From positions 1 to 51,471 of IMG/VR virus record IMGVR_UViG_3300028025_001688: a stretch of 51,471 bases of DNA; one strand, 5' to 3'. The notes below the pieces were generated by a model. That model worked only from the letters and a program-made list of their open reading frames with translations, searched no databases and was not told the DNA's origin. A program made the translations under genes and the position numbers. Shown here piece by piece: positions 17,520-48,499 of the stretch (positions are counted from its first letter, which is position 1; every line of letters starts with the position of its first letter). Source of the stretch: a virus.

Positions 17520-17536
17520 ATCTTGCCCCAATATTA

Positions 17537-24384: not shown

Positions 24385-24804
24385 TTAACAGTTCCACTTT
24401 CTAAGAGCAAGTGCTTTACGAGTTGGACGACCCTTATCATCTTTCATTGGACCTTCCATGCCACCCATTCGTGCACAGAAAGATCTTCTGCGTTTTGCTG
24501 CTTTGCTATCAGGTTTTAGTTTAGAAGGTGGTGTAGTAACTGGTGCTTGTAGATTAGCACCTTTAGCATTATATGCGTCACGACCTTTTTGTGTCAATCC
24601 ACCAGTTGAAGACTTATGTCCTTTGGCATCGACTGCTGCTTCATAAAGAGCAACATCATCTACCACTTCAAACTTTTCCCAAACAGTTTCTGGATCGACA
24701 TTATATTCCTCTGCCATTGCCATTACCATTTCTTCGATGACATCAAACTGTTCATCAAGAGATAATTGCTCGTTTATGTATTGGTTAAATGATTTAAAAG
24801 ACAC
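24385..24804 (-). CDS. DUF6321-like protein with capsid-targeting-like N-terminus
   Basis: 139 residues from a GTG at 24804 with GGGGAG 8 bases upstream. N-terminus MSFKSFNQYINEQ resembles the T4 capsid-targeting peptide with an INE cleavage-like site. C-terminal domain KGHKSSTGGLTQKGRDAYN ... SKAAKRRRSFCARMGG ... GRPTRKALALRKWNC is the conserved, basic DUF6321-type block with two Cys. Could be DNA-binding and packaged with the genome. Overlaps the end of the 1107-residue gene by 11 bases. Confidence 0.65.
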   Translation of the reverse strand: MSFKSFNQYINEQLSLDEQFDVIEEMVMAMAEEYNVDPETVWEKFEVVDDVALYEAAVDAKGHKSSTGGLTQKGRDAYNAKGANLQAPVTTPPSKLKPDSKAAKRRRSFCARMGGMEGPMKDDKGRPTRKALALRKWNC

Positions 24805-27800
24805 TTGGTTGGCTCCCCTGAGTATATTTTGTATGAGACAATCTTGCTTTCTCTACTTTACGAACACGAGGTGCTAAGCGAGTGGCAATACGACCAATAA
24901 TTGCTTTTCTTTTCTCTAATGTTCTTTCGATTCTTTCTTTCTCACCAACAGAAACCTTTGATGGATCTCTGCCACGAAGTAATCTTTTCTTCATTAGTTT
25001 AATTGCAAGTCTGCGTGCTCGTTTATTGATTGTAGCAGTATTTGAATATCGTTTTAGTGCAATCTTAGTTGCTCGTTCACGCTTTGCTTTTGTGCGACGA
25101 ATTCTTGCTTTGGCTTTCATTCGTTCGATGCGAGATAAAACTTCCATCAAAGCAGATTCTTTGAGTTTCTTTTCTTCCTCTTCATCTGCTTCTAATTCTT
25201 CTCCAGTTTCATCATCAACGATACCTAATTCATCTTCTTCATAAGTGTCTAGGTAATCATCATCTGATAATTCATCTGCCATACTATCAATTTCATCGTC
25301 AGATGGCTCTGGGAAGTCAAACTCATCTTCATCTTCTTTGAACATCGCATCAAATGGTTTGTCTGTTGCAACTGGACCAGCATTTGGTTTCTCGCACTCA
25401 CATGGACTCTTACCACAAACTGGGCAAACTTCTGCTTCTTCATTCTTTGGTACGCAGTCAGGAACCATGCGGTCGCCTTTCTTCTTCATACCAACTTGTT
25501 TGTGAGTATCCCAGCATGCTTCATACAATTCTTCGTTCATGTCTTCATTAAACATTGCACGATACTTTAATGTATGCTTGCTTGGTTTAGTTTTGGCAGT
25601 TGCATCTCCAGGTGCTGGTTCGTATGCTGATGGATCGCTATCGCTTTTCTTATCCATTTTATCCCAATGTGCTGCTCTTGCTTTTGCAGTTGCATTAGAT
25701 AATCCTGCCACATATTTCTTTGGAAGACCAGACTCTTTATCTTTTGGCACTTCTGGTAATTTCTTTTCGTTTAGTTCTTCCTCACGAAGATCTTTATCTG
25801 CTCCGTGATATGTTCCCTTACCTTTTGTGATGTAAGAGTTTACACGAGCCATACCCCACTGCTGTGGAGTTGTTCCTGGACGATGACCAGAGTTCCATGC
25901 AGCTACACCACGACGATAAACTTTGCGCAATGTGCCGATTGAAACACCAGACTTCTCTGCTTTAGCAGCAAGTCCTGCTTCTGCTGTTTCGCAGATTTGT
26001 ACTTCTTCTTTTAGATCAGTATGTTTAACTTTAGTAGAACTACCATTGTTAGCACCTTGGAAATGAACTTCATCGCCTTTACGACGAGCAGTCCAATGTT
26101 TTCCATCTTCAGTTTTAAACTTATGTTCTTGTTCGTCTTTTAATTTTGCAATGGCTTGATGATGTTCTGGATGTAGAGGAATAGAGAAATCTGCACCATG
26201 ATGAACAGTCTTCATAGTTCCCCATGAATACTTTTGAGTCTTAACAGTCGCTTCTTCTAATTGAATTTCTTCATGTAGATCTGCATAAACAGATTTATGT
26301 GGTGATTTTTTAACATGATCAGCAAAGTTTTTAGCATCTGACTGAGATTTAAATTTGAAGTAAGCACCCTTGTCAGAATGCCCATCAAATTCACCACCAT
26401 GTTTTTTAACTCCAGCATTAACATGCTCTACATCTTTAGGATGTGGTTTGTCACCGTAATTACTACCATCATCAACATGAACAATGTGTTCTTCTTTTAA
26501 TGATTCTTTTTCTCTGGCATGTTTGTCAGCAAGAGATTCTTTTTCTCTCGCATGCTTAGCCATTAGATTTGCTTTGGCAGTCTCTAATGCAGCTTTGTCT
26601 TTTTGCTCTGTCATACCCTGCATCTTGTCAAGGAAAGACTTGGCTAATTTCTTTTGTTTAGCAGTATGCTCTGGATTAGTGGCGATATGCTGTGCAGTGT
26701 TCTCGTGTCCTGCTTCATCACCATATGATGTCATATCTACATGAGGAATCTTGTGTTGCTCACCTAGATGATACTTAATTTTACGACGACGGAGATTGTC
26801 TTGTTTTCCTGCACCAACTAATGTATGACCAACTTCTGTCGGATCTGTAATCTGTACTTGATGTTCGTAGTCATGATCAGACTCGTTGTCTTTTTTATCG
26901 TCATTCTCAGACTCTTCATGTTCCTGCATCTTTTGCAGTTTCTTAAAGTCATTGAAACGAAGAATGTCTTTTGCGAAATTATACTTGCTATTCTTATTCA
27001 CAACAACTGAATCTGTTGGTGTTTCAATTTTATCTGTGCCACCAATCTGCATCGCACCTTCTTTTAATTTAGATGGTTTTAATGTAGCATCGTATTGAAT
27101 ACCTTGCTCTGTGGCAAGATTAAGCATTTTGTCGAGGATATGAAGTGCTTCTGGATTAAGTGCCTTTGTGCGAACTTTACGCAGTGCTTGATTGATAAGA
27201 TTCTCTGGATTAGATGATGTCTCTGCATTATCAACACCAAGCATGGTTGCGATAATACGAGCGACTTTAATCTTGTCGTTTGGTCTTAGTGTCTTGTCTG
27301 TAAGTGCTTCGTTCATATCTTCTTTTTCTTCTGTTGGTTGAACATCTTGAATCCACTTTGATACTAGGTTTCCAGATGCTTCTTTTAGTAGTAAATGATT
27401 TGAACCACGCTTGACGATTGTAAATCTTTCGCCAGCGGACTCTACAATATCTCCCTCATTAAAGATCTCTCCACGAAAAAACTTCTCACGAAGTTCATCT
27501 TTAACAAGGATAATCTGTTCTTTGATGGGTTCAAGACCCATACCATCACGAATGTCATTCATCAATCGTTTACCATCAATGTCACGAACAGTGGATGGCA
27601 AACCTTTTTTAAATTCTGAGTAGCTACCTTTAACAGCAAGACTACGCATCTTAGATGCAGACATGCCTGTAGCGTCATCCGCATCAGGATCTCTTTCACC
27701 TGCAGATACAACTTCAATGGTATCAAAGTTAAACTCTTTACCATTATATGTATTTAACAATCGTTTAAATTCAGCAATACGATCTGAACCAGCAATCATA

Positions 27801-28117
27801 ATAATGTTCTTATACTTCTTATTCAGTGCCTTTGCTGCTTCAATGAATGTTCTTTCCTGATCATTGGCTGCAGCAAAGTTAGTGCTCTTAAACATCAGCT
27901 TAAGATACTTAACCTTTTTCTCTACAGATAGGGGATTCTTTTTAGCATCTTGTGACCTAGATGCATAGATTACATGGTCAGCGTTTCTTTGCTGAGCCAG
28001 TTTTTTGACTGCCTTAACCAATAGTTCATGACCGATAGTCGGAGGATTGAATCTTCCGAATGCGAATACCACAGACTTCGCTGGTAGTTCTTTGATTAGC
28101 TGTTTGTAATCTTTCAT
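24794..28117 (-). CDS. 1107-aa mosaic: nucleotidyltransferase fused to many small domains
   Basis: Residues 15-200 form a cytidylyltransferase/NMN-adenylyltransferase-like domain: GRFNPPTIGH (21-30) is the HxGH-type motif and SASKMR (153-158) the ISSxxxR equivalent. Then a small beta-domain (about 203-262), a coiled-coil region with two copies of KHAREKESL (521-540), a DUF5824-like block (about 713-766), a CPVCGKSPCEC knuckle (898-908), a long acidic stretch (927-984) and a very basic tail (1000-1107). Begins MKDYKQLIKE, capsid-targeting-like. Repeated LxEE and IxE sites between blocks suggest processing. Late promoter at 28148-28157. Confidence 0.75.
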   Translation of the reverse strand: MKDYKQLIKELPAKSVVFAFGRFNPPTIGHELLVKAVKKLAQQRNADHVIYASRSQDAKKNPLSVEKKVKYLKLMFKSTNFAAANDQERTFIEAAKALNKKYKNIIMIAGSDRIAEFKRLLNTYNGKEFNFDTIEVVSAGERDPDADDATGMSASKMRSLAVKGSYSEFKKGLPSTVRDIDGKRLMNDIRDGMGLEPIKEQIILVKDELREKFFRGEIFNEGDIVESAGERFTIVKRGSNHLLLKEASGNLVSKWIQDVQPTEEKEDMNEALTDKTLRPNDKIKVARIIATMLGVDNAETSSNPENLINQALRKVRTKALNPEALHILDKMLNLATEQGIQYDATLKPSKLKEGAMQIGGTDKIETPTDSVVVNKNSKYNFAKDILRFNDFKKLQKMQEHEESENDDKKDNESDHDYEHQVQITDPTEVGHTLVGAGKQDNLRRRKIKYHLGEQHKIPHVDMTSYGDEAGHENTAQHIATNPEHTAKQKKLAKSFLDKMQGMTEQKDKAALETAKANLMAKHAREKESLADKHAREKESLKEEHIVHVDDGSNYGDKPHPKDVEHVNAGVKKHGGEFDGHSDKGAYFKFKSQSDAKNFADHVKKSPHKSVYADLHEEIQLEEATVKTQKYSWGTMKTVHHGADFSIPLHPEHHQAIAKLKDEQEHKFKTEDGKHWTARRKGDEVHFQGANNGSSTKVKHTDLKEEVQICETAEAGLAAKAEKSGVSIGTLRKVYRRGVAAWNSGHRPGTTPQQWGMARVNSYITKGKGTYHGADKDLREEELNEKKLPEVPKDKESGLPKKYVAGLSNATAKARAAHWDKMDKKSDSDPSAYEPAPGDATAKTKPSKHTLKYRAMFNEDMNEELYEACWDTHKQVGMKKKGDRMVPDCVPKNEEAEVCPVCGKSPCECEKPNAGPVATDKPFDAMFKEDEDEFDFPEPSDDEIDSMADELSDDDYLDTYEEDELGIVDDETGEELEADEEEEKKLKESALMEVLSRIERMKAKARIRRTKAKRERATKIALKRYSNTATINKRARRLAIKLMKKRLLRGRDPSKVSVGEKERIERTLEKRKAIIGRIATRLAPRVRKVEKARLSHTKYTQGSQPSVF

Positions 28118-33446: not shown

Positions 33447-34055
33447 TTATCTCTTGAAATGTCCTTCCAAGAAACTCAAAACCTTTCCCTGCTCCTCTAA
33501 GTTAGTATTAACGAACTCTGTAATGTAGGGCATCAGTTCAAAATTAGACAATATATTACTATATTTAGTCGCACGACCTTTTAGGAAAGTCTCAGATTGG
33601 TCGGATCCTCGTTCTGCATAGCGTTCTTTTAGCATAGCATCTGGAACTTTAAGGTAAATTACCTGAAGATCCGTATTAGGAAGTCCCATTGCAAACTCTA
33701 GGAAGGACTGATTAAAGATTCGGTCTCCCTCGAATAGAATATTGGAGGTGGTCTCTCTAACAAATTCCTGTGCCACTGGTTGAACAGCCATACTTAGACG
33801 ATCTGTGCCAGCAAAGGTTTCTCCATCATCATACTTACCTAGAATGTATAGGTCTAGTTCTTTACAATATAGAGCAGGAAGCATCTTTTTAGGTTCGACT
33901 TTCTCCCATTGATACTTCTCCATAAACTTACGGAATAGAGTGGTTTTACCAGTTCCAGGTTGACCACCCACAGCGATTAGTTTACGCACCTGTGGTTCTC
34001 CACGAATAATCTGAATTGAAATTTGATCAGTTGTTCCTACAATTTCTTTAAGCAT
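33447..34055 (-). CDS. P-loop kinase, candidate DNA-base (5-hmdU) kinase subunit
   Basis: 202 residues. Walker A GQPGTGKT at 31-38; a second conserved patch DDGETFAGTDRLS (about 76-88) resembles small-molecule/nucleotide kinases, and ILFEGDRIF (about 107-115) is the Walker B region. Predicted to transfer phosphate from ATP to a hydroxyl. Position at the end of the modification island next to the helical AGPT/HMUDK-like gene suggests it phosphorylates a hydroxymethylated base; alternatively an ordinary (d)NMP kinase. Confidence 0.65.
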   Translation of the reverse strand: MLKEIVGTTDQISIQIIRGEPQVRKLIAVGGQPGTGKTTLFRKFMEKYQWEKVEPKKMLPALYCKELDLYILGKYDDGETFAGTDRLSMAVQPVAQEFVRETTSNILFEGDRIFNQSFLEFAMGLPNTDLQVIYLKVPDAMLKERYAERGSDQSETFLKGRATKYSNILSNFELMPYITEFVNTNLEEQGKVLSFLEGHFKR

Positions 34056-34443
34056 GTTTCACTTCCTCAATAAGTTTTCTTAGTTCTTCCTCTGTAAATA
34101 CCCAGACTCTTCCAATAAAGTGATGCACATCAGAGTCAACATCATGTTTCTTTGTAAAGGTAATCTTCTTTACCAATTCTCTTGATGCATTCTTAGCAAG
34201 GTTTTCTTTAATCTCGTCTGCATAAGTTGGAACAGTATCTTTTAACTTTAAGAGTTCATGTGCTGATACTTTATGATCAACAGTTAGTTTATTAAACTCA
34301 TACTTGTCTAGTAAGTCATCGGTTATTACACCCATGGCAATGGTTCCATAACTACCACTGGTGTTTGATATAGTTATACTCCCAGTGGTCATATCACTAA
34401 TGCTTACTGGTAAAGAAACAGAACTTGTCGTTGTTAAACTCAT
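34048..34443 (-). CDS. Small unknown protein inside the modification island
   Basis: 131 residues. Ser/Thr-rich beta-like N-terminus (1-40), then a charged helical C-terminus (KKHDVDSDVHHFIGRVWVFTEEELRKLIEEVK). Overlaps the kinase by 8 bases and the helical-protein gene by ATGA, so the three are translated as a unit. Might be a subunit bridging the kinase and the helical protein; nothing direct supports this. Confidence 0.55.
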   Translation of the reverse strand: MSLTTTSSVSLPVSISDMTTGSITISNTSGSYGTIAMGVITDDLLDKYEFNKLTVDHKVSAHELLKLKDTVPTYADEIKENLAKNASRELVKKITFTKKHDVDSDVHHFIGRVWVFTEEELRKLIEEVKHA

Positions 34444-35462
34444 GCAAAAATCTCCAATCCATTTAATATAGGTTGCTCATCATCAAACATCCACTCTAAA
34501 TTCTCTAGTCTTCCTGTATTAATAAAACTAGAAAATCTTTCTTTATCAATTCCTCTTCTGTGGTCTAATCTCAAGTCGATAGTTTCTTCTCGTGATTGCC
34601 ACAAAACATCCCAATCAATACCATACCATCCATCCTTCTCACACTGCATAATTTCTTCTGCCTGTCTATCAAGATAGTATCCAAGATAACGACCATGATG
34701 TGCTCTAAAGATCTTCTTAAAAGAACACAAACAAGTTTCCATGGTAAAGTAATCTATCTGATCAATTAGTTCTGGAAATCTCGCTTTCGTCTCGCAAAGA
34801 ATCTCGTACGCTTGTGCTTCAAGGTTGCTATAATGTCCTCCAGTGAGTTTTCTATCCACAAAGTCTTCCTGTCCAACGGCATAAAGCAATCCATTACGAT
34901 GAGAGCGAGAGCCATCATAATCATCCAACATGAGAGAAGTAGGATTGATACGGACACCAGCAGTATGCTTAAGATGCTGAAGATAAAACCAAGTGGAATA
35001 ACGACCAAACTTATGCAACCCAGACTTAATGCCTGTCCACAGGTTATTAAAGTTCTCTTCTTCATTGTGTCCATAATATTCTTCCAACCTTTCTCTCTGT
35101 GTTTTGTCTCCCACAAATTGTTGGTAAGAAGCGAACATGGTAGGGAGGTGTCCTTTGTTCCACTTTGTATCTGTTTGGTATCTTAATCGTTTATAGTTTG
35201 TAGTGTTCCACTGTGTCATACGATCTACAGTGGCTAACTCGAAGTCTGGAAACTCGTTCATTAGAATCCATGCAGTTGGAAGATAGTATGTATTACCATA
35301 CAACCAACACAACCACAACTTCTGCTCATCATTATGTTCATAACGATTGTTCAGATAGTTTGTTGCCCATACAGCAGGGTCGCAGTCATCATATTTCAAT
35401 GACCAAGCATACCAGCGAATGAACGCTTCTTTACGATTTTGTTCTAGTCTGTAATCAGGCAT
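34440..35462 (-). CDS. AGPT/PPT-pyrophosphorylase-like (5-hmdU DNA kinase helical domain-like) protein
   Basis: 340 residues from the ATG at 35462 (AAGAG 5 bases upstream); a longer frame reaches 35492. Highly patterned helical core: LYGNTYYLPTAWILMNEFPDF, LRYQTDTKWNKGHLP, then MFASYQQF, HYSNLEAQAYEILCE and AHHGRYLGYYLDRQAEEI. I recognise this as the family first described as alpha-glutamyl/putrescinyl thymine pyrophosphorylase, one clade of which is now taken as the helical part of 5-hmdU DNA kinases. Acts on DNA carrying a hydroxymethyl base. Family call is from memory of the pattern. Confidence 0.6.
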   Translation of the reverse strand: MPDYRLEQNRKEAFIRWYAWSLKYDDCDPAVWATNYLNNRYEHNDEQKLWLCWLYGNTYYLPTAWILMNEFPDFELATVDRMTQWNTTNYKRLRYQTDTKWNKGHLPTMFASYQQFVGDKTQRERLEEYYGHNEEENFNNLWTGIKSGLHKFGRYSTWFYLQHLKHTAGVRINPTSLMLDDYDGSRSHRNGLLYAVGQEDFVDRKLTGGHYSNLEAQAYEILCETKARFPELIDQIDYFTMETCLCSFKKIFRAHHGRYLGYYLDRQAEEIMQCEKDGWYGIDWDVLWQSREETIDLRLDHRRGIDKERFSSFINTGRLENLEWMFDDEQPILNGLEIFA

Positions 35463-36132
35463 ACCATCTCTTAAATGAAGTCTCAGGAACATCCCAGCAT
35501 AATTGGTTTTCCCATCTTTCGTTTTTATAAAACAACTCGTCTTTTATATCTTTTAAATTTACAATGGCATATGTGCCAGTGAACAATCCAATTAGAAAAC
35601 AATAGGATGCTCCATCATGTTTCAATGCATGGTCAACCTTATGTCTTTTAATAGTCGCCACACCTTCACCTGTTCCACATTGAACATCAATACGAACATC
35701 GGCAGTCTTATCAATCAAATCTGCATCACCTGTTCGTTTAAAAGTATCAATGCTCGTTAGGTCATCTCCACCATTTCTTTCTAGTTTACCTAGTATCAAT
35801 TTATCAACGATGAATGGTGTGAATATCTTTTCAGTTAGATAACCAAGCATCCAACTATAATAAACATCTTCCATGGCACGACCATTATTTCTCATACGAG
35901 GAAGAATATTGTTATTCTTAATCTGCATAAATGTATCAATGATGTCTTGGCTAATGTTTCCATCGTATGGAACTTCCAATCTCTGATTGATTTTATTGAA
36001 GATATTATCTAAACGAGAATTTTGTTTTTGAATCAGTGTCCAGTTTGGCTCTTTAATATCCTTTGCTGAGAGATACTTTTGGAATTCATCTTTACGAGTA
36101 AACCCCATCGCTTTACGATATTCTTTTGTCAT
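35455..36132 (-). CDS. Nuclease-fold-like protein in the modification island
   Basis: 225 residues from the ATG at 36132 (ATGA overlap with GNAT). DADLID (136-141) then RIDVQCG (147-153) and a Lys-rich IKRHKVDHALK recall the D...(D/E)x(K/Q) core of restriction-like folds, followed by a hydrophobic strand CFLIGLF. Ends ETSFKRWYA. Could be a DNA-binding or cleaving partner, or an inactive structural relative, as the catalytic Lys appears to be Gln. Low certainty. Confidence 0.45.
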   Translation of the reverse strand: MTKEYRKAMGFTRKDEFQKYLSAKDIKEPNWTLIQKQNSRLDNIFNKINQRLEVPYDGNISQDIIDTFMQIKNNNILPRMRNNGRAMEDVYYSWMLGYLTEKIFTPFIVDKLILGKLERNGGDDLTSIDTFKRTGDADLIDKTADVRIDVQCGTGEGVATIKRHKVDHALKHDGASYCFLIGLFTGTYAIVNLKDIKDELFYKNERWENQLCWDVPETSFKRWYA

Positions 36133-36770
36133 ACTAAAAACTCTTCCAATGATGGTTGTTCCATCAATGCCTCTCTCAACCATGCTTTACCCACTGCATC
36201 AATTGCTGCTTGGCTCTTTGCTTTCTTTTTCTCACCCCACTTGTAGGATTCTAATCCCTCTAATCGGAATTGTTCTCTGGCTTTGTATGGTGGTAGTGCT
36301 TGAAGTGGATTCACAATAGCATAATCTCGATAAGCAATCTGCTCTACTCTCGTTGGAAACAATGGCTGATCAGAACGAAGTGAACCTGTTGGATCTACTG
36401 CCCACCAAATCAAACCATTTTTGTAGTGCCATGTAACAGATGATGGTGTGCAGGACATTTTCAATCGAGTCATCTTTCTTTCTTTGACTGCATAATCAAT
36501 CCATGCATCCCAACATTTGGATGCGTATCCTTTACCTTCATGCCCTTCAAGTGTAACAATCTCATATAGATTTGAGTAGTTGTCACGATTGAATGTAGCG
36601 AAGATAAGAGATACAACTTCACCATTTACTTCATAGGTCATTGGTGGTGCTTTGTCATAATTGTGAAAGCGATACCACAATGAGTGTGCAGCCGATAAGA
36701 ACTTAGTGTTCTTACCAGCTGGACTGTTTTTAATTAGTTCTTCTACTCTCGTAGAATTAACAAAGTTCAT
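36129..36770 (-). CDS. GNAT acyltransferase with sliding-clamp-type C-terminus
   Basis: 213 residues. VTLEGHEGKGYASKCWDAWIDYA (about 90-112) is a clear GNAT motif A (acetyl-CoA binding, xxGxGxA). The N-terminal 60 residues and a C-terminal extension (170-213) flank it. The last residues QPSLEEFLV fit Q-x-x-L-x-x-F-L, a PIP-box-like clamp-binding peptide, as in the phage polymerase. Likely acylates an amino group on a modified base; this substrate is inferred from the neighbours. Confidence 0.7.
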   Translation of the reverse strand: MNFVNSTRVEELIKNSPAGKNTKFLSAAHSLWYRFHNYDKAPPMTYEVNGEVVSLIFATFNRDNYSNLYEIVTLEGHEGKGYASKCWDAWIDYAVKERKMTRLKMSCTPSSVTWHYKNGLIWWAVDPTGSLRSDQPLFPTRVEQIAYRDYAIVNPLQALPPYKAREQFRLEGLESYKWGEKKKAKSQAAIDAVGKAWLREALMEQPSLEEFLV

Positions 36771-37452
36771 AGTGTTGAAAATCCACTGCGTCGGCTATCG
36801 TTTCTTTCTCAACCATCATAGCCAATGCATCATCAAAAGTTATATAAGTGTTCAAAGGTAACTCAGTTGTAAATCCTTCAATACCTGCTCGTGCAGGAAT
36901 GTTTTCAGTAGAGGTAATTATACATCCATTGTTGAAAGTTGTCAAATATAATGGTCGTTTACCATTGCGATATGCACGAATAACTCTATCAACATGCAAC
37001 TCACAAACTGCAAGACTGGAATCTTTCCAACGAATTAACGGAGAGATGCAATCTTCTGCTGTATGTAAGATTAGTTCTGTATCATTTTTAGTTTCACAAT
37101 CATAACCATACAACTCTTTCCATCTCTCTGGTAGTTCTTGAGTAATAACTCCATTGTGAACTACTGAAAGATTTTCATTAGCGATTGGCTGATTATACTC
37201 AAGATCACTAGTGCTATAACGACAGTGCCCAACAAGGTATAGATTTCCATCTTCATTGACATACGCTGGCAAATTAAAAGGAAATTCATTAGCTGGAACT
37301 GGATACTTTTCAGTATGGATTTTACCATGCTTAACATAAGAGATTCCTGTGGCATGCATCCCACGAATCTTAGACTCATGGAATACACGAAGTAGATTTT
37401 CAAAATCCTTTGTTGAAGGATTCTGAATGATTGTTCCAATTACGGCACACAT
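36757..37452 (-). CDS. Class II glutamine amidotransferase (Ntn hydrolase)
   Basis: 231 residues. Cys2 as nucleophile after Met removal (MCAVIG), GHCRYSTS (75-82) with the glutamine-binding Arg, NGVI (100-103), and ND-T-E (about 122-126) complete the GATase II pocket. It has no synthetase domain, so it must pass ammonia to another enzyme. TAATG-coupled to the dioxygenase and overlaps the GNAT by 14 bases. In this setting it could supply nitrogen to an activated base. Confidence 0.85.
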   Translation of the reverse strand: MCAVIGTIIQNPSTKDFENLLRVFHESKIRGMHATGISYVKHGKIHTEKYPVPANEFPFNLPAYVNEDGNLYLVGHCRYSTSDLEYNQPIANENLSVVHNGVITQELPERWKELYGYDCETKNDTELILHTAEDCISPLIRWKDSSLAVCELHVDRVIRAYRNGKRPLYLTTFNNGCIITSTENIPARAGIEGFTTELPLNTYITFDDALAMMVEKETIADAVDFQHYELC

Positions 37453-38768
37453 TATCCGAAGAACTCCTCGAGTGCATTGACAGTTGTAGTCTTTGGTGGA
37501 TGATACTTGTTCAATACTTCTATGCCTAGTTTTGATTCTAGATAGTCAAACCATTCTTTAGAATCCCACATTGATGGTGATACACCATTCCACAATGGTC
37601 GTTGCTCTGGATGTTCTTTATTAAGTCTACGAGATTCAACGAAATCATAACGACAATCTTCATACTCTTTAGAACCCAACTCAAGCATCTTCTCACGGAA
37701 ATACACAACCAATGAAATTCTTTCTGCCACATCGTCAAGCAATTCAATCTGAGTATTACCATGCATCACTTCATGATTGTTAATCAAAAGCAGATCTCCA
37801 GGTCTTGGATTTACTGCGACACGATACTCTGGTGCAACAAGATGACATCCTTTGTAGTTACCATTGTTTGATAATGTCAATAGATTTGATAGACCAGAAG
37901 TTAGGTCACCTGCGTCAAAGTGGCATGCAGTTCTAAAAGATCTATTCACAGTGACAGTAGTAAATGGAGTTTCTGGAACTAAGAAACGAGGATCCATTTT
38001 CTTTGCTGCTTCCATCTGGTTACCATATCTCCATGGCAATAGATCTTTGAAACCCTGTGCAAGTTGCTGGAGGAATGGATATGCCATTGCAAACTTATCT
38101 GGATGATTCGCAGTATAAGAAGTGGCACGACCATAAGGAATGCGAGGATAACGATCGAACCATCCAGCAATACCAGAGAACACACCATTGGCATAAGTTG
38201 TTGCACAGATATATTTCTCAGCAACTTTTTTTGCTTCTGCACGCATTTCGTTTTCAGAAAGTTTTCGTGTTGATTCAACCCAGTCTTCAAAGACAAAGTT
38301 ATCTTTCTTTACAGTAGAAATACCCCAAACATTATTACGATTGGATGGAGATGGTTTCTTGTTCTTGTGTGACTGGCGAATTGCTTCAATGGGATCTTCA
38401 CCAAACAGATTGGCTTTAGGATTGCTAAAGTAATCAATGATATCATATTCATACTCAGTGACCCATTCACGATTGCCCAATTTCTCTGCTCTTGGTCCAG
38501 CTGCAAGTCCACGATTCTGTGTCTCAGTTGCAGCTTCACGAAGTCCAATGTATGCTTGGTCTTGTTGTTCTTTTGTAAAATAATTCTTACGGAACTTAAG
38601 AACAATTCGTTCTTCTGAATATGTCAGTTCAGGATGACCTGGAATCTCTGGCATATAGACATCGGTGTCTTCTTCAATGAGGTGATCATAATGCGACTCG
38701 TCAGGGAACTGTCCCAACATATGAGTCATATCATGTTTTTGTTTTGCTACAATAACTTTTACTGACAT
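37452..38768 (-). CDS. TET/JBP-type 2-oxoglutarate/Fe(II) dioxygenase
   Basis: 438 residues. RIPYGRATSYTANHPDKF (209-226), HFD (283-285) as HxD iron ligands, H336 (MHGNT) as distal His and R350 as 2-oxoglutarate ligand give a complete TET/JBP-type core: TVNRSFRTACHFDAGD ... NPRPGDLLLINNHEVMHG. Oxidises the 5-methyl of thymine or 5-methylcytosine in DNA to hydroxymethyl. No cytosine methylase is in the window, so thymine is the simpler substrate. C-terminus NALEEFFG is polymerase-like and may bind the clamp. Confidence 0.8.
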   Translation of the reverse strand: MSVKVIVAKQKHDMTHMLGQFPDESHYDHLIEEDTDVYMPEIPGHPELTYSEERIVLKFRKNYFTKEQQDQAYIGLREAATETQNRGLAAGPRAEKLGNREWVTEYEYDIIDYFSNPKANLFGEDPIEAIRQSHKNKKPSPSNRNNVWGISTVKKDNFVFEDWVESTRKLSENEMRAEAKKVAEKYICATTYANGVFSGIAGWFDRYPRIPYGRATSYTANHPDKFAMAYPFLQQLAQGFKDLLPWRYGNQMEAAKKMDPRFLVPETPFTTVTVNRSFRTACHFDAGDLTSGLSNLLTLSNNGNYKGCHLVAPEYRVAVNPRPGDLLLINNHEVMHGNTQIELLDDVAERISLVVYFREKMLELGSKEYEDCRYDFVESRRLNKEHPEQRPLWNGVSPSMWDSKEWFDYLESKLGIEVLNKYHPPKTTTVNALEEFFG

Positions 38769-38777
38769 ATCCTTCTC

Positions 38778-40166
38778 CTAAAACTTAAATCCCTCGAATG
38801 ATTCTGCTTTTTGTCTGCGACCAAAACTACTCTTATCAAACACTGGTTCATCATCTTGACCAGAGTCACTTATATTAACTTGAGCAGATGCTTCTGTGTC
38901 ATACAATTTCATCTTTGCTCTATCAATTCCAATCACAAATCGTTTGTAGAAACTAGGATCGTTGTAACGATTCTTTAATTGTTTCACAAGAATCTGATTT
39001 AATGCTTCCAATTCTTCATTGCTGACCAAAGCAAACATAAAGTCAGCTGTCGCTGGCAAACCAAATGATTCACTCGTATCTTCTAGTCCTGGATCTGAGT
39101 TTGTGTATCCAGAACGAGTCGTTTGAGTTGCTGAAACGATTGGCACATTATACTCTACTGCCAAACCTCTCAACTCTTCTGCGATTGCCTTAATATATGT
39201 ATAAGAATTAATACTTCCACCTTGCTTCATTCTCTGACTTGCACAAATATTAAGATAGTCAATAAAGATTATGTCAGGTCTAAAGTCTCGTTTCAGTTTC
39301 AATTCTTCCAACAATGCACGGAAATGACCAGAGTGAGCACTTGCTGTTGGATATTCTTTGACAATTAGTTTACCTTTTGTCTTGCTTGTAATCTTTGCGA
39401 TACGAGTTTCAAAGATATCCTTGTCAATGACTTTCAATTCATCCATGGTAAGGTTCAAAAGATTCGCATCAATCCTCTCAGCGATTCTTTCTTCTGCCAT
39501 TTCCATAGTTATGTATAATACATTTTTACCCTGTGTCAAACAACCAGCACTCATGTGACACATGAATAATGACTTACCGACACCAGTACCAGCCAAAGCA
39601 ATGTTTAAGGTTTTCTTTGAGAGTCCACCTTTGGTGATTTTGTTGAACATGTCAAGGTCGAAAGGAATCTTCTCTTCAACCCTGTGATAAAAATCAAACC
39701 TCGAAAGATGGTCATCCAGATAGTCATGACCGATGTGATTATCAAAAGAAACAGCGAGTGCATCGCTAAGGATGCTAGGTATCGCATCTTTTGTATGAAT
39801 TTTATCTCGCCCATCGATGATACTAATTGAATTAAGGATCGCATTATAAACCGCTCTATCTTTACAAAACTTCTCGGTGTTTTCTAGCATCCAGTCTTCA
39901 TTGACTGGTTCATGATTCAAACTACCGATATAATCGGTGATTTCAACTAACTCTTTGTCGTTAAGATCTTTTCTATTACTAACTTCAATAGACAAGATTT
40001 CTTTTGTTACTGGTTTGTTATACTTTGTGAAGAAAGAAACAATCTCGCTTGTGAGTATTGCTTCTTTACGATCTGTAAAATACTCTTTCTTTAGAAACGG
40101 AATTACCTTACGACAATAATGCTCATCATGTATCAGATTGCTTAGAATCTTCTGTTCTATTCTCAT
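38778..40166 (-). CDS. 41: Replicative helicase (T4 gp41-like, DnaB family)
   Basis: 462 residues from the ATG at 40166 (a TTG three bases upstream extends the frame). Walker A AGTGVGKS (192-199), Walker B IIFIDYLNIC (about 294), and the R-rich arginine-finger segment near NRYNDPSFYKRF. Hexameric 5'-3' helicase at the fork, partner of primase gp61. Begins inside the end of the preceding gene (41-base overlap). Confidence 0.93.
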   Translation of the reverse strand: MRIEQKILSNLIHDEHYCRKVIPFLKKEYFTDRKEAILTSEIVSFFTKYNKPVTKEILSIEVSNRKDLNDKELVEITDYIGSLNHEPVNEDWMLENTEKFCKDRAVYNAILNSISIIDGRDKIHTKDAIPSILSDALAVSFDNHIGHDYLDDHLSRFDFYHRVEEKIPFDLDMFNKITKGGLSKKTLNIALAGTGVGKSLFMCHMSAGCLTQGKNVLYITMEMAEERIAERIDANLLNLTMDELKVIDKDIFETRIAKITSKTKGKLIVKEYPTASAHSGHFRALLEELKLKRDFRPDIIFIDYLNICASQRMKQGGSINSYTYIKAIAEELRGLAVEYNVPIVSATQTTRSGYTNSDPGLEDTSESFGLPATADFMFALVSNEELEALNQILVKQLKNRYNDPSFYKRFVIGIDRAKMKLYDTEASAQVNISDSGQDDEPVFDKSSFGRRQKAESFEGFKF

Positions 40167-40458
40167 CAACTCCGCCTGTATATGTTAAATTATTTTCTTG
40201 GATACCTTCATGAATCAAGTGTTCAAGAATATTTCCAATGTATTTCTCAAATGGTTTTTTATCAGACAATCCTTTTTCGGCATAGTCTAAAATCTCATAA
40301 TCAAATTTTAATGTTGCAGAATCATTTTCTTCATCTGTTTCAAATTCAACTTTACCATAACAATAGATTATACCAGCAAATGGTTCTTCTGTCAACTTAA
40401 TTGCTTGTTGCCCATCTCGTTTATCTTCGAGGACAATAATTGGAAGATTACTCTTCAT
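40126..40458 (-). CDS. Conserved protein between uvsX and helicase
   Basis: 110 residues, acidic, beta-rich N-terminal half (LPIIVLEDKRDGQQAIKLTEEPFAGIIYCYGKVEF), hydrophilic C-terminus. Always-present position between uvsX and gene 41 in the marine T4-like phages I recall. No catalytic motif. Overlaps both neighbours, 11 bases with uvsX and 41 with the helicase. A recombination or loading accessory is a guess from position. Confidence 0.65.
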   Translation of the reverse strand: MKSNLPIIVLEDKRDGQQAIKLTEEPFAGIIYCYGKVEFETDEENDSATLKFDYEILDYAEKGLSDKKPFEKYIGNILEHLIHEGIQENNLTYTGGVDENRTEDSKQSDT

Positions 40459-41521
40459 CGAATTCCAATTCCTCTAGTGCTTTATCTAAGTCATCTGCCC
40501 TAATCATGTCACCCTGACCCATTGAATATTTGTTCTTGACATAGTCATAAAATGTTTTATCTGTAAGAAGTGGCAACCAGAACTCTTTAGTGTCAGTATC
40601 TTTTATACGATATTTCTTTTCTTCTACTTCGCCTGTGACTGGATCACATTTGGAATACCAACCATTGGATGGTTTGACCACATGTTTGGACTCAAGAGCA
40701 ATATCAAGCAAACCGCTCCACTTACTAAGACCACCATCAAAAGATACGCTAACAGGTATCTTAGATTTTTCTTTAACATAACGACTCTTCTCGACATTAA
40801 TAATAAAATTGTAACCAGTCAATTCAGTTCCATCTTTCTCTTGCTGACGACCAAGAATAAAGATGTTATCAGCTGAGTAGTAAGAACCAGTGCCACCACC
40901 AACGATGTCTTTTGGATAAAGACCAATCTCTTTATATGTATGATTCACTACAACGAGTGGAATATCTTTCATTGACAAATGAGGTGTAACCATACGGAAC
41001 AAAGACTTCATCTGCTTTGCACGACTCATATCAGCAACTGCCTTCTGATCCAATGCATCCTCTACTTCTTTCTTGGAAGCAAGGTTTCCTATCGAATCAA
41101 TGATGATGATGAGGTGATCTCCTCTTTCGACTGTTGACAATTGTTGCATAATATCGAACTTGAGTTGTTCAACATCTGTGACAGGAGTATGGAGAACTCG
41201 CTTTGTATCAATACCAAAAGTATCGAAATAAGATTGAGGAGTACCAAACTCGGAATCATAAAACAGTAACGCTGCATCTTCATATTTGTCCAGATAAGAT
41301 TTTGCCATGAGCAAACTGAAAGCTGTTTTGAAGTGCTTGCTTGGACCAGCCCACATCGTCAATCCTGGAACCAATCCACCATCAAGACGACCTGATAAAG
41401 CCACATTGATAATTGGTACTGAGGTTGGAATCATATCCTTCTTAGCGAAGAATTTAGACTGAGCAAGAATTGCTGAATCTTTGATTGTTGTATTCTTTTT
41501 AATTTTGTCTAGTATGCTCAT
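40448..41521 (-). CDS. uvsX: Recombinase UvsX (RecA family)
   Basis: 357 residues. Walker A GPSKHFKT (59-66) is the UvsX-type variant; Walker B LIIIIDSIGNL follows at about 137. C-terminus acidic (DKALEELEFDEE), as expected for DNA-binding regulation. Forms filaments on single-stranded DNA for recombination-dependent replication. Length slightly under T4 UvsX (391). Confidence 0.93.
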   Translation of the reverse strand: MSILDKIKKNTTIKDSAILAQSKFFAKKDMIPTSVPIINVALSGRLDGGLVPGLTMWAGPSKHFKTAFSLLMAKSYLDKYEDAALLFYDSEFGTPQSYFDTFGIDTKRVLHTPVTDVEQLKFDIMQQLSTVERGDHLIIIIDSIGNLASKKEVEDALDQKAVADMSRAKQMKSLFRMVTPHLSMKDIPLVVVNHTYKEIGLYPKDIVGGGTGSYYSADNIFILGRQQEKDGTELTGYNFIINVEKSRYVKEKSKIPVSVSFDGGLSKWSGLLDIALESKHVVKPSNGWYSKCDPVTGEVEEKKYRIKDTDTKEFWLPLLTDKTFYDYVKNKYSMGQGDMIRADDLDKALEELEFDEE

Positions 41522-41814: not shown

Positions 41815-42366
41815 TTATGGATTGTTCTTGGAATGTGGAACATCAAACACAAATGTAATTCTTACAACATCTCCAACATTCTTTGTTCCATGAGATTGTT
41901 TATTATCAAACCAAATCAAGTCACCTTCTTCTACTCTTACAGTCTCTCCTCCAACTGTATAGTCATATGCACCTTGGATTGCAAGATGGTATCTGTCTCT
42001 TGTTTGATAGTAAGACCCAATATCAATATGTTGCCCAACTTCTCCACCCACTGGCAATGATAGGAATCCACATCTATCAAATTTCTTAAAGTGTCTCTTT
42101 AAGAAAGAAATAATCTCTGTATGATGATTGCATGCAGGTGTTGATGTAGAGATCTCACTGTCACCAACATACTGGTCTTTAGATGAGATAACTCCCATGA
42201 CTAATTGCAGAACACCTGCTTCAACTGCAGGGAATCCACAATCATCTACAAGATCTCCCACACCCTCAATGTTTTTCTGAGCACCCCAATCCTCTGGATA
42301 CTGATGCAATTGTTTCAGTATCTTAGATACATTTATTCCTTTTTTAATTACTCTGATATTAGCCAA
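41815..42366 (-). CDS. Aspartyl/asparaginyl beta-hydroxylase-like 2OG oxygenase
   Basis: 183 residues from a TTG at 42366, the only plausible start; GGAGG lies 6 bases upstream, inside the last codons of the polymerase gene. HID (113-115), H159 and R169 form the iron/2-oxoglutarate site of the Asp/Asn hydroxylase family: GFLSLPVGGEVGQHIDIG ... IWFDNKQSHGT. Would hydroxylate a protein side chain or a small molecule. Seen in other marine T4-like phages; substrate unknown. Confidence 0.82.
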   Translation of the reverse strand: MANIRVIKKGINVSKILKQLHQYPEDWGAQKNIEGVGDLVDDCGFPAVEAGVLQLVMGVISSKDQYVGDSEISTSTPACNHHTEIISFLKRHFKKFDRCGFLSLPVGGEVGQHIDIGSYYQTRDRYHLAIQGAYDYTVGGETVRVEEGDLIWFDNKQSHGTKNVGDVVRITFVFDVPHSKNNP

Positions 42367-44845
42367 AGAAATCCTCCAATGAACTTTCTTCTTGCGTCTT
42401 CCAACCTAGTGGTTCAATGACAATCTGTAGAGCATCAAGAAATACCTTTTCAAATTGTTTGTCATAATCTATGTATGCTTCCAGTCCAAACTCTTTTGGA
42501 AGATGCTGACTAAAAGCAATCACATCTTCTTGTAGAGGATTTGGTGTGCGGACATAAACAAACTTAATCTTATCACCATCACGAATTGGTTGATACTTCT
42601 TATCTAATCCCATTCGTTTGCAGTGGTGATTGTAAAGCAATGCACCACGAACATGAATTGGTGTTCCCTTTGTATAAATCGGAGAACCAGCATACTGCTT
42701 CATACCATTCACACCACGAGGAAATGCCACTTCATGCACTGGCAGTTTATCAAACTCTTTCTTAAAAGCTGTTACATATGTATGTAGGTCTTTTTGATCG
42801 CCAGCAAGAATAACTTGTAGCGAATCCCTAAGTTTGTCACGAATAACCGCAGGTGTAGACGACTTGACCATCTCCAAACCCATAACTTTGATTTTAGGTT
42901 TCGCAAATTGCACTCCTTCCGAATTATGAACATTAATAACATATCGTTTCTTGGCAGTCCAGATTGCTTTGTCAGCTAGAACTTCTCGTTTCATTTGCAT
43001 CTTCTGACCATATGCATTCATGTAGTCAGCCAATTCGCTGTAACCTTGATCAATGAATGGTTGAAATACTTCTTCGCAGATTTTGTCCATCGTTTTAATC
43101 TTCTGCTCAATAGTTTTACCTTCACAAATCTTCTCAATCAGTTCTTCCAAAGTCAGATAGATTGAGTCAGTATCAATAGCAACAACGAAATCTTTACCCT
43201 CTGTCTTGAGAGTTTTGTTGAGGAATGCATTCAACTTGTTCGCCATCCAACGAATGGATAGCTGACCACTGGTGGTAATACCTTCAGCCATACGAATATC
43301 AAAGTAACGGAAGTACTGATTACCCATTGCACCATAAGCAGAGTTGAGAGCAATCTTCATAGCCATCTGTAGATTGTTTAGACGAGAGATATCTTTTAAT
43401 AGATGAACCTTTGTCTTATCGTTTTGATATTCTTGTTCAACCTTCAACATCTGTTTCTTAAACTTGGAACGATTTATATACATCTGTTCCATCAACTCTG
43501 GCATAAAACCTTTGATGTCTTTACGATATGTCCAACCATTTGCAGTTAAGGTGAGGTCTCTTCGTTTAACATAAGATGTATCCACTTCTTGATTAAGCAA
43601 TTTATCAACGCTGACAGAAAGTTTCTCGCTGGTCAATGTCTCAGGACTTATGTTGTACTGCATAATCAAGTGTGGATACAAACTGTTTAAGTCAAAGGAT
43701 GCTACCCATTTATGCATACCGATAATTGGGTCTTTAACGAAAGCACCTTCGAACTGTGCATCTTTACCTGAAGAAGTCTTTGCTGGAATGACAATACCTT
43801 TCTTGCGCAGGTGATTGTAAATGATAGTATCCCACATACGAACTTGTGAATAAACATCTTCAGGATTAATCTTAGCATTGTATGCCATGGTAAGATGCAG
43901 TTCAATCAAACGCATCTTGTCTTCGAGTTGATCAACCAACTCCACATCGTGAATATTATATTCAACAAACTTATCCCAGTAGTTTGTATAGAAATCTTTG
44001 AAGTCTGTTCCTGGATTCTCTTTCTTCTTGTCGCCCAATTCTTCTTGTGCGATATAATCCAAACGATAAGACTCTTGCTTTGTATATGTATATTTTTTGT
44101 AAAGTTCCAAATAGTCTAGTTGAGAAATACCTAGAATGTCATAGTGAAGTTCTTCGTTACCTTTGATGAATGTCTTGCGTTCATTGATGTAACCCCATGG
44201 ACTAATTTTCTTGGAGAATGAATCACCGAGTTCTCTGTCTAATCTTTTGATAAGATATGGGACATCAAAGAAGTCTGTATTCCAACCAGTGATACAATCT
44301 GGGTAGTTCTGTTGCCACCAAATTATAAACTCTTTCAGCAGTTGTTGTTCATCACGACAATAAACATACTGACAATCTTCTCGTTTGTTTTCATATGGCT
44401 TAGTGCCAAAGGTGATAATGTTCTTTGTTTGTAGATTCTTAATCGTAATTAGAAGAATCTCTTCATTGGCACTGCGGATATCTGGGAATCCATTTTCAGT
44501 GGCAGTTTCAATGTCAATGGTGAACACTTTGATTTGTTCCATGTCCCAATTGACATCGTCTTGATAAGTGTCGCTGATATATTGATATGCGTAATTGGTA
44601 TTACCATACACAGCAAAACCTTCTACATCTTCGTAGCGTTTGACAAACTCTCTTGTATCTTTAATCGTTCCAGGTTTTACTTCATCAACATATGTATCAT
44701 CCAAAGTCTTCCACTTAGATTGCTTCTTAGAAGTGACAAAAAGCGTAGGGTAGAAATCTACCTTACGCTGATATGCTCTTCCTTTATCGTACCCTCTAAC
44801 GAGTATCTTATCGCCCAGTGGATGGACGCTTGTGTAAAATTCCAT
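42359..44845 (-). CDS. 43: DNA polymerase (T4 gp43-like, family B)
   Basis: 828 residues. Exonuclease motif FTIDIET (108-114), ITGWNTDFFDVPYL (185-198), YNIHDVEL (296-303); polymerase motif A FDLNSLYP (384-391), motif B KIALNSAYG (497-505), motif C AIDTDSIY (556-563). Proofreading and polymerase both intact. C-terminus QEESSLEDFFG is the clamp-binding-type peptide expected of a gp43 enzyme. TAATG-coupled to the DexA-like gene upstream. Confidence 0.96.
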   Translation of the reverse strand: MEFYTSVHPLGDKILVRGYDKGRAYQRKVDFYPTLFVTSKKQSKWKTLDDTYVDEVKPGTIKDTREFVKRYEDVEGFAVYGNTNYAYQYISDTYQDDVNWDMEQIKVFTIDIETATENGFPDIRSANEEILLITIKNLQTKNIITFGTKPYENKREDCQYVYCRDEQQLLKEFIIWWQQNYPDCITGWNTDFFDVPYLIKRLDRELGDSFSKKISPWGYINERKTFIKGNEELHYDILGISQLDYLELYKKYTYTKQESYRLDYIAQEELGDKKKENPGTDFKDFYTNYWDKFVEYNIHDVELVDQLEDKMRLIELHLTMAYNAKINPEDVYSQVRMWDTIIYNHLRKKGIVIPAKTSSGKDAQFEGAFVKDPIIGMHKWVASFDLNSLYPHLIMQYNISPETLTSEKLSVSVDKLLNQEVDTSYVKRRDLTLTANGWTYRKDIKGFMPELMEQMYINRSKFKKQMLKVEQEYQNDKTKVHLLKDISRLNNLQMAMKIALNSAYGAMGNQYFRYFDIRMAEGITTSGQLSIRWMANKLNAFLNKTLKTEGKDFVVAIDTDSIYLTLEELIEKICEGKTIEQKIKTMDKICEEVFQPFIDQGYSELADYMNAYGQKMQMKREVLADKAIWTAKKRYVINVHNSEGVQFAKPKIKVMGLEMVKSSTPAVIRDKLRDSLQVILAGDQKDLHTYVTAFKKEFDKLPVHEVAFPRGVNGMKQYAGSPIYTKGTPIHVRGALLYNHHCKRMGLDKKYQPIRDGDKIKFVYVRTPNPLQEDVIAFSQHLPKEFGLEAYIDYDKQFEKVFLDALQIVIEPLGWKTQEESSLEDFFG

Positions 44846-46969: not shown

Positions 46970-47198
46970 TTTGTTCTCCGAATACATGATGGAATCTATT
47001 GAATTTTATTCCCAGTGTATGATGTATGACTTTATCTTTAACCATATCTGGAATTGTTGTGTAAGGAAATTCAAGATAGAATGGACATCCATCATTTCCC
47101 CATGTCTGGTCTTTAATAAATCTTTTTACAAGATTCATATCCTGTTTTGATTTAACATCAAAAAATCTTTTTGGTTTTAATCTACTTTCGAGTATCAT
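46953..47198 (-). CDS. Small conserved T4-like protein
   Basis: 81 residues, MILESRLKPKRFFDVKSKQD ... WGNDGCPFYLEFPYTTIPDMVKDKVIHHTLGI. The WG..GCPF.LE.P..TIPDMVKDK pattern recurs next to DNA ligase in T4-like marine phages. ATGA overlap with the ligase stop. Function unknown. Confidence 0.65.
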   Translation of the reverse strand: MILESRLKPKRFFDVKSKQDMNLVKRFIKDQTWGNDGCPFYLEFPYTTIPDMVKDKVIHHTLGIKFNRFHHVFGEQNESSN

Positions 47199-48499
47199 TT
47201 AATAATTTTTGAAGAATCTGCAACATCTTTGTCGTCACGGATTTCTACAAAGACAGGTAGGAACAGACTCTCTTCACCTTGTTTGTTTTTGATTCTAGCA
47301 TTATACTTCACTGCCACGATTTTGTCAACTAAATTTTCTTTCCAATATTGCTTTCGTTGTGCATCATTGAAACCAGATCCTACATTTACCTTTACAATTC
47401 CATCTGCAGACTCGCAAATAATTGCACCAAGCATACCTACTGCCTTACCCTTACCTTCTTCGACTGCAACAATCTTAAGATCGCATTCCAATTCACCTTT
47501 GAATTTAATCTGAGTCTTGCTTCGTTTGTCTTCCCAGATACCACTACCATCTTTAAGAATGATTCCTTCGTAACCAAGAGACAAGTATTCTTGGAAGATC
47601 TCTTGTGCTTGTTCTATTGTTTCTACAATTGTAGATGATACAGCCCATATCTTTTTACCATCTGACTTTTGATTGTTTACAATCTGTTCCAAAGTCGAGA
47701 ATCGTTTTGAGTATGGAGTCGAACACTGACCTGCTTCAAACATAACATAAGGAATTAAATCCCAAACAGATGCGTGTACCATCGATGCTTCTTCAGCAGA
47801 GATCGTACCCTTGTTTGCTTTGTTAAGAATACCATTACCTGTTTGACGATCTGCGAACTGGTGATCACCCTCAAGCATAACCAACAACTCACCATCAAAC
47901 ACACAATCAATATTTCCTGCCAGTCCAGCGAATTCTTTCTCCAGATTACCCAAGAGATGAATCTGTTTACCATTTCGGCTACGGAATTCTACCTTACCAT
48001 CACGAACAATGGCATTGAATCGCATACCATCCATCTTCATCTGAGCATAGGCTGGGAACTTAATCTTGTCAACTAACTTCTGTTCAAATGGACTGCATAA
48101 CATGCAGGGATACTCAGCAATCAATCCACTCCAAACTTTATTGGCAGTGGATACATCAACACCACATTTCAGATCTTTCTGAATGATTCGTTCGATAACT
48201 TTAGCATCATCTGGTGATAAAGATGCGAGCAACATACGAAGATATTCGATTGCTGCATTACCTGTAACAGTGCGAGAAGATAAATCATAAAGTGCTCCAA
48301 GTACATTCTCCAAAGAGGTTTGTTTAGAATCAGTAACATACTGAGGGATCTTACGCTGATAGAATTGCGTAAATGGGTCGAGAGCCAGACGAATGACCTC
48401 ACGCAGAGTTTCGTTATCGCTCTGTGCGTTTAATTGGTCGATCTTGAAATTGCGTGAGGCATTCGCAGCTAGACTATCAAGAAATTTGTTTATGTTCAT
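47195..48499 (-). CDS. 30: ATP-dependent DNA ligase (T4 gp30-like)
   Basis: 434 residues. KMDGMRF (about residue 155) is motif I with the AMP-binding Lys; FDGELLV is motif III, EGIILKD motif IV and IKFKGEL motif V. N-terminal domain like that of T4 ligase. Seals nicks in replication and repair. Starts within the SWIM gene's end (23-base overlap). Confidence 0.94.
   Translation of the reverse strand: MNINKFLDSLAANASRNFKIDQLNAQSDNETLREVIRLALDPFTQFYQRKIPQYVTDSKQTSLENVLGALYDLSSRTVTGNAAIEYLRMLLASLSPDDAKVIERIIQKDLKCGVDVSTANKVWSGLIAEYPCMLCSPFEQKLVDKIKFPAYAQMKMDGMRFNAIVRDGKVEFRSRNGKQIHLLGNLEKEFAGLAGNIDCVFDGELLVMLEGDHQFADRQTGNGILNKANKGTISAEEASMVHASVWDLIPYVMFEAGQCSTPYSKRFSTLEQIVNNQKSDGKKIWAVSSTIVETIEQAQEIFQEYLSLGYEGIILKDGSGIWEDKRSKTQIKFKGELECDLKIVAVEEGKGKAVGMLGAIICESADGIVKVNVGSGFNDAQRKQYWKENLVDKIVAVKYNARIKNKQGEESLFLPVFVEIRDDKDVADSSKIIK

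Follow-up and report, generated by a model that had tools for sequence, protein, structure and literature searches.

The stretch of DNA analyzed here (the window) is the whole of a 51,471-bp IMG/VR virus record, IMGVR_UViG_3300028025_001688, whose gene content identifies the source as a T4-like phage. Directly downstream of the gene for a gp41-like helicase it contains an island of seven overlapping minus-strand open reading frames (ORFs), running from 38768 to 33447 and encoding, in transcription order, proteins of 438, 231, 213, 242, 350, 131, and 202 amino acids (aa). The initial annotation had described this island as a DNA base hypermodification pathway built on a TET/JBP-type oxygenase. 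An ORF check confirmed that the seven genes are intact, in the claimed order and close to the claimed sizes, and all of the residues named for them were found (H283-F-D285, H336, and R350 in the first protein, C2 and GHCRYS in the second, and GQPGTGKT in the last). In the following, a Pfam match is called above cut-off when it exceeds the curated cut-off of the family, which applied to the oxygenase, the glutamine amidotransferase (GAT), the GNAT protein, and the amino acid:DNA transferase (ADDT).

The first gene (37452 to 38768) encodes a TET/JBP-type Fe(II)/2-oxoglutarate (2OG) oxygenase of 438 aa, the proposed hydroxylase of the thymine methyl group on DNA. The protein matched Pfam Tet_JBP with an E value of 3e-25 (88.8 bits; cut-off, 34.9) and phrog_24024 with one of 6e-154. 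A PDB sequence search with the oxygenase alone gave nothing meaningful, and TET2 was reached by the TET profile only, which matched TET2 structures at 2.9e-6 with the metal and 2OG residues aligned. H283, D285, and H336, forming the metal triad, and R350, the 2OG-binding arginine, were each at least 97% conserved among 116 homologues, and with the Pfam match and the TET2 alignment they bear out the assignment to the TET/JBP-type 2OG dioxygenases. At the position aligned with His1904 of TET2, which we take to be the base contact, the window protein has Arg358 (at least 97% conserved in its clade), and the proteins of phages Melnitz and ChrisnMich have Asp and Leu, respectively. The TET/JBP proteins of Cr30, DLP6, and S-CBWM1 were deposited as "SNF2 DNA repair protein," a label that hides them from keyword searches.

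The second gene (36757 to 37452) encodes a stand-alone class II GAT of 231 aa with Cys2 as the catalytic residue. It matched Pfam GATase_6 at 2.8e-10 (40.7 bits; cut-off, 27), and C2, R78, N100, G101, and D124 were at least 97% conserved among 88 homologues; the motif GHCRYS reached the same level, and the NG and ND motifs were also conserved alongside the nucleophile C2, in agreement with the class originally proposed. A PDB sequence search with the GAT gave nothing meaningful, and its relatives in named phages, at most about 28% identical, were located in other phage groups. The GAT was restricted to loci of one ADDT subfamily, and the GAT-linked ADDTs formed a single clade (SH-aLRT of 89 in a quick tree with long branches). 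The next gene (36129 to 36770) encodes a GNAT acyltransferase of 213 aa, identified as such by a match to Acetyltransf_1 (3e-6), as had been claimed, and proposed to N-acylate the installed amine; in related cassettes it is swapped for an amidoligase and another GNAT or for an amidoligase and a phosphatase. In Vibrio phage 2.275.O (L250; 7866 to 12126), an amidoligase and a GATase-like protein (a weak match) lie within a 7-deazaguanine DNA-modification gene cluster, so the two enzymes look like general base-tailoring tools.

The fifth ORF (34440 to 35492; 350 aa), previously described as an AGPT/5-hmdU-kinase-helical-like protein, encodes an ADDT (aGPT-Pplase2-like). It matched PF18724 at 2e-19 (70.7 bits; cut-off, 26.2) and phrog_3271 at 4e-54, and it was 27% identical over 295 aa to the protein of Salmonella phage Vi01 (E value, 1.6e-24); the same Pfam family is also present in Pseudomonas phage M6, Delftia phage phiW-14, and Caulobacter phage Cr30. 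A PDB sequence search with the ADDT gave nothing meaningful. Homologues that lack the upstream 242-aa insertion start at window residue 10 to 13, and thus the true protein is probably about 340 aa long, with its start at the internal Met11. The last gene (33447 to 34055) encodes a P-loop kinase of 202 aa, a proposed 5-hydroxymethyluracil-DNA kinase. Matches to Ploopntkinase3 (2.3e-11) and phrog_800 (7e-18) upheld the P-loop kinase identity first read from GQPGTGKT, and Walker A and many further positions were at least 97% conserved in 68 homologues. The phrog_800 profile also detected the kinases of Vi01, M6, and phiW-14 (1e-69 to 9e-42) and, as a caution, picked up P-loop proteins of a general kind in each of the 14 control genomes. 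A profile built from the window clade alone found the M6 kinase weakly and not those of Vi01 and phiW-14, so the link to these three phages depends on phrog_800. With active-site residues conserved across 68 to 116 homologues, the oxygenase, amidotransferase, and kinase genes look like working genes, and the description of the island as a base hypermodification cassette with a kinase and a transferase of the families found in thymine-modifying phages is supported.

Scans of IMG/VR gave 310 confirmed TET-protein matches and 209 confirmed ADDT-protein matches, and a search led by the Cr30 TET protein added approximately 70 loci (designated here by L numbers). Among the loci retrieved, the arrangement uvsX-gp41-TET-GAT-GNAT-(242)-ADDT-131-kinase-next gene recurred, as the neighborhood search suggested with the initial annotation was meant to ascertain; since approximately 100 loci retain the cassette with gp41 on one side and the same downstream gene on the other, its order is far beyond chance. 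It is therefore very improbable that auxiliary genes without any relation to one another have gathered here. The 242-aa and 131-aa genes do come and go, but the TET, GAT, ADDT, and kinase genes occurred together in all 40 GAT-bearing loci with at least 6 kb of downstream sequence, each of which also carried a GNAT or an amidoligase, and the order was fixed across TET proteins differing by half of their residues. The full cassette was not found in any named phage of the collection searched, and a nucleotide search for relatives of the window among named phages gave none. Stenotrophomonas phage DLP6 and phage C48C1 carried a TET gene and, separately, weak kinase-family matches, and an ADDT was not found in either of them. 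The earlier view that the combination is unusual was nevertheless overstated: the annotation of Rhodococcus phage Tonitrus already includes the core trio of TET, ADDT, and kinase genes, and environmental phage contigs commonly carry the whole set.

The proposal that all seven genes belong to one pathway did not hold, as the 242-aa and 131-aa genes are optional and absent from otherwise complete cassettes; neither protein had a family match in Pfam and phrog searches. The 131-aa gene (34048 to 34443) was in most cassettes of the window type and missing from several complete ones, and the model of this optional accessory protein had a predicted local distance difference test (pLDDT) score of 59, with uncharacterized phage proteins as the best structural matches. 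The 242-aa gene (35455 to 36183) was present in 24 of 103 loci and thus missing from about three quarters of the cassettes, including five (L006, L007, L008, L029, and L083) with TET, GNAT, and ADDT proteins about 98%, 99%, and 98% identical to those of the window. Where it is absent, the GNAT gene abuts the ADDT gene, and where it is present, the gap is 640 bp; it always occupies the same slot, even in a divergent lineage with an amidoligase replacing the GNAT. The protein carries a nuclease-like motif, G-x-A-D155-L ... I-D166-V-Q168, and a check for a PD-(D/E)XK fold showed D155 and D166-V-Q168 to be invariant among 15 sequences, with a structure model (pLDDT of 47.5) too poor to use. The gene first called restriction-fold-like is thus an optional insertion, and its product is probably not a base-modifying enzyme of the pathway.

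Because the 242-aa gene is absent from near-identical relatives and other nuclease-like genes use the slot, two readings fit it, a homing-type insertion and an optional partner nuclease. In sister cassettes the slot before the ADDT gene holds, by our reading of the sequences, an HNH-like gene or a member of a GIY-YIG/ParB-like family, the latter related to a protein of the TET/kinase operon of Melnitz (E value, 1.2e-9). This relationship weakened the idea that all of the nuclease-like genes in the slot are homing endonucleases. The 242-aa protein might instead be a functional partner that cuts unmodified DNA, like the ParB-like proteins of other TET/kinase operons, and not a mobile element. 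The other nuclease-like occupants of the slot speak for such a role, as do the ParB-like genes that accompany TET and kinase genes in actinobacteriophages (PMC11955845), but with the gene missing even from near-identical cassettes and the fold only putative, we regard it as possible and on balance doubtful. In one locus (L002; 5956 to 7101), a GNAT without its C-terminal part runs in frame into the 242-aa protein, giving a 381-aa fusion that is either a deletion or an assembly artifact.

We consider it probable that the core of the island enables a T4-like phage to hypermodify thymine after replication, through a pathway in which TET oxidation comes first. Phages Vi01, M6, and phiW-14, with known thymine hypermodifications, served as positive controls for the base question, and all three carry an ADDT, a phrog_800 kinase, and a PF00303 protein. 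In contrast, a PF00303 hydroxymethylase-type gene was not found in the window or in 16 large TET-bearing relatives (50 to 197 kb, seven of them at least 161 kb). The window encodes a ThyX thymidylate synthase (17537 to 18217, minus strand; PF02511, 4e-46), which in this context points to a supply of dTMP and not of 5-hydroxymethyl-dUMP, and among ten close IMG/VR relatives tested, ThyX was found in all nine of at least 40 kb (eight of them at least 50 kb). These results agree with the earlier statement that the phage has ThyX and no dUMP hydroxymethylase in the window, and they support the proposal that the oxygenase replaces the nucleotide-level enzyme. A PF00145 C5-cytosine methylase was not found in the window, in 18 IMG/VR relatives tested (seven of 161 to 197 kb), or in Cr30, DLP6, and C48C1. 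No recognized enzyme for making 5-methylcytosine, 5-hydroxymethyl-dCMP, or 5-hydroxymethyl-dUMP is present, and the simplest and likely substrate of the oxygenase is therefore thymine in DNA.

Several points weigh against this conclusion. The substrate base is deduced from the absence of other routes, and metagenomic contigs may be incomplete; homology establishes the enzyme families, from which we infer each of the reactions. C5 methylation by the host is a possible source of 5-methylcytosine. Arg358 at the His1904 position of TET2 would fit a changed base recognition, but any altered specificity could account for it, and the base is not identified by it. Cr30, with its TET, ADDT, and kinase genes, also has a strong PF00303 gene; its score, 3.9e-113 compared with 8e-15 to 5e-20 in the three controls, suggests a normal ThyA. 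Finally, a kinase of the same family in Melnitz sits beside a TET gene and a C5-cytosine methylase gene, so the kinase alone is no proof of thymine.

In Methylophilales phage Melnitz-3 (MZ577098; L248, 2457 to 6537), genes in a row encode a PF00145 C5-cytosine methylase, a Tet_JBP protein, a GIY-YIG/ParB-like protein, and a kinase that shares 37% identity with that of the window. They may form a system by which an isolated phage hypermodifies cytosine with the help of the kinase, and a cytosine version of the cassette logic thus probably exists. For the window, such a version would have the TET protein act on 5-methylcytosine made by the host or by an unrecognized methyltransferase, and the kinase and transferase build on 5-hydroxymethylcytosine. 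5-Methylcytosine is the substrate of most characterized TET proteins. Phages pairing a C5-methylase with a TET protein are also known, according to PMC12730594 (citing Burke 2021), and Melnitz holds both genes together with the related kinase. We nevertheless judge this version improbable for the window, given the genomes in which the methylase was not found and an ADDT family that is otherwise known from thymine-modifying phages. Melnitz, moreover, carries its own methylase beside the TET gene, and an ADDT was not detected in the five Melnitz genes examined. The paper on DLP6 describes a digest with 18 enzymes, and its printed result sentence is silent on whether the DNA was cut.

In the thymine pathway that we favor, ThyX, identified by homology, would make ordinary dTMP, and the phage would replicate with T. 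The oxygenase would then hydroxylate the thymine methyl group in DNA to give 5-hydroxymethyluracil, and the kinase, judging from its family in Vi01, M6, and phiW-14, would phosphorylate the hydroxyl to give 5-phosphomethyluracil. In the ADDT reaction, a nitrogen nucleophile would take the place of the phosphate; it could be an amino acid or else ammonia that the GAT releases from glutamine. The resulting amine would be acylated by the GNAT or, in sister cassettes, built on by the amidoligase, leading to a bulky, N-acylated thymine of the 5-aminomethyl type that would block restriction nucleases. In this scheme, the gene for the nuclease-like 242-aa protein stands apart as a separable insertion, and the 131-aa gene would be accessory.

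The nucleophile could be supplied in two ways. In one of them, the ADDT would add an amino acid, like its counterparts in Vi01 and M6, and the GAT, with an amidoligase where there is one, would amidate the carboxylate or trim a glutamyl group. The family is named for amino acid transfer, the window protein is homologous to the Vi01 and M6 transferases, and the GAT is paired with an amidoligase in one type of sister cassette and is found near one in the Vibrio phage 7-deazaguanine cluster. However, the window has no amidoligase alongside its GAT, and the GAT-less Cr30 ADDT scores 181 bits against the Pfam family compared with 72 to 87 bits for GAT-linked ADDTs, a difference suggesting that the GAT-linked enzymes use another donor; we rate this amino acid variant as somewhat short of an even chance. 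Alternatively, the GAT and ADDT may act together as a glutamine-dependent DNA aminase that converts the TET-made, kinase-activated 5-hydroxymethyluracil to 5-aminomethyluracil, which is then acylated by the GNAT or the amidoligase. The strict co-occurrence of the GAT with one ADDT subfamily is compatible with an ammonia supply for the displacement, the source first proposed in the initial annotation, and we advance this proposal tentatively, as rather unlikely. If it were true, it would be a nitrogen transfer reaction on intact DNA, and a single thymine oxygenase would be followed by tailoring modules that can be exchanged; we know of no described hypermodification system with nitrogen transfer onto intact DNA.

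The genes that follow the oxygenase differed among loci. The window represents cassette B. Cassette A (Cr30, L178, L208, and L221) consists of the ADDT, an inositol-1-phosphate synthase, a small protein that reads as HAD phosphatase-like, and the kinase; the myo-inositol-1-phosphate synthase gene lies in the gap between the ADDT and kinase genes at 13009 to 14235 in L178 (by Pfam), 10778 to 12055 in L208, 8333 to 9544 in L221, and 13290 to 14471 in the Cr30 locus L136 (annotated), and its product might provide the base with an unusual group. Cassette C contains the GAT, an amidoligase (PF12224), another GNAT, an optional nuclease-like gene, the ADDT, and the kinase, and cassette C' contains the GAT, a TET-associated glycosyltransferase (PF20691), an amidoligase, a low-molecular-weight (LMW) phosphatase, the ADDT, and the kinase. 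The same pair of amidoligase and LMW phosphatase occurs in phage Simon (PQ683277, a sewage record; L249, 9968 to 11381), and a profile search did not find TET, ADDT, or kinase genes within 10 kb of it. In cassette D, a glycosyltransferase with or without a cytidylyltransferase follows the TET gene, and the ADDT and kinase are absent nearby (L190, 10001 to 13557; L192, 10001 to 13100; L197, 6674 to 9792; L229, 10001 to 13212). A C5-methylase was not found in the L190 and L229 records, and these four loci are candidate phage cassettes for a base J-like glycosyl-hydroxymethyluracil. Downstream of the TET gene, additional 2OG oxygenases or a radical SAM enzyme occurred in single loci, the radical SAM gene lying as an insertion between the 131-aa and kinase genes of one cassette (L025; 6777 to 8201). 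On a quick tree of the TET proteins the cassette label changed at least 17 times, compared with a minimum of 5. A constant TET protein with changing followers is as predicted if it makes a general hydroxymethyl handle. A single oxygenase would then accept exchangeable tailoring cassettes of the N-acyl, amide, glycosyl, and possibly inositol types, which points to several undescribed DNA bases in common environmental phages.

The closest known systems share parts of this arrangement. Vi01 and M6 make 5-NeOmdU and 5-NedU, respectively (PMC6449724 and PMC11721090). Together with phiW-14, they resemble the window in the ADDT-family transferase and the phrog_800-family kinase but use a PF00303-type hydroxymethylase on the nucleotide, where the window has ThyX and TET followed by the GAT and GNAT. 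The annotated THM set of the actinobacteriophage Tonitrus comprises a ParB-like protein, a tet-like J-binding protein, aGPT-Pplase2, a 5-hmU DNA kinase, and a hypothetical protein (PMC11955845). It thus shares the core with the window but belongs to a different phage type and has the ParB-like gene instead of a GAT, GNAT, or amidoligase, none of which is reported for it; mycobacteriophage ChrisnMich likewise has ParB-like, TET, and kinase genes at its left end. Cr30, also T4-like, encodes TET, ADDT, and kinase proteins 46%, 27%, and 39% identical to those of the window within about 9 kb, but this stretch has no GAT or GNAT and has the inositol-1-phosphate synthase between ADDT and kinase, and the phage has a ThyA-type gene. 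As a described phage and the nearest isolated carrier of the core trio, it makes the core prediction directly testable.

The phage TET systems of Burke's 2021 work reportedly hypermodify cytosine with a C5-methylase, a TET protein, and glycosyltransferases. The proposed pathway would share with them the TET-made hydroxymethyl handle for tailoring, and PF20691 occurs in a sister cassette, but the C5-methylase is theirs and was not found here, and the window has the kinase/ADDT route. The JBP1/JBP2 base J pathway of kinetoplastids is similar in its hydroxylation of thymine in DNA by the TET/JBP family, as proposed here; base J is glucosylated, in contrast to the proposed phosphorylation and amine transfer. 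The trio of TET, aGPT-Pplase2, and 5hmU kinase was thus already known from annotation in a Rhodococcus phage. To this the present analysis adds that the hydroxymethylase is cleanly replaced in a widespread group of T4-like phages, that one ADDT subfamily is linked to the GAT, and that the cassettes are modular, and it takes the 242-aa gene out of the core pathway. If the favored reading is true, a phage can enter thymine hypermodification by oxidizing thymine in DNA instead of by using a special nucleotide, and the phage enzymes could be used to test how TET/JBP proteins distinguish thymine from 5-methylcytosine.

Elsewhere in the window, the gp41-like helicase gene (38778 to 40169) is accompanied by genes for a UvsX/RecA-like protein, by our reading of the sequence (40448 to 41521), and a family B DNA polymerase (42359 to 44845), and genes for T4 RNase H (1295 to 2212), a ribonucleotide reductase (15723 to 17531), and a DNA ligase (47195 to 48499) are also present. 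A second 2OG oxygenase-like protein (Asp_Arg_Hydrox/cupin) is encoded at 41815 to 42366, adjoining the DNA polymerase and a thioredoxin, and a protein of 1107 aa encoded at 24794 to 28117 has an N-terminal cytidylyltransferase-like domain and DUF5824.

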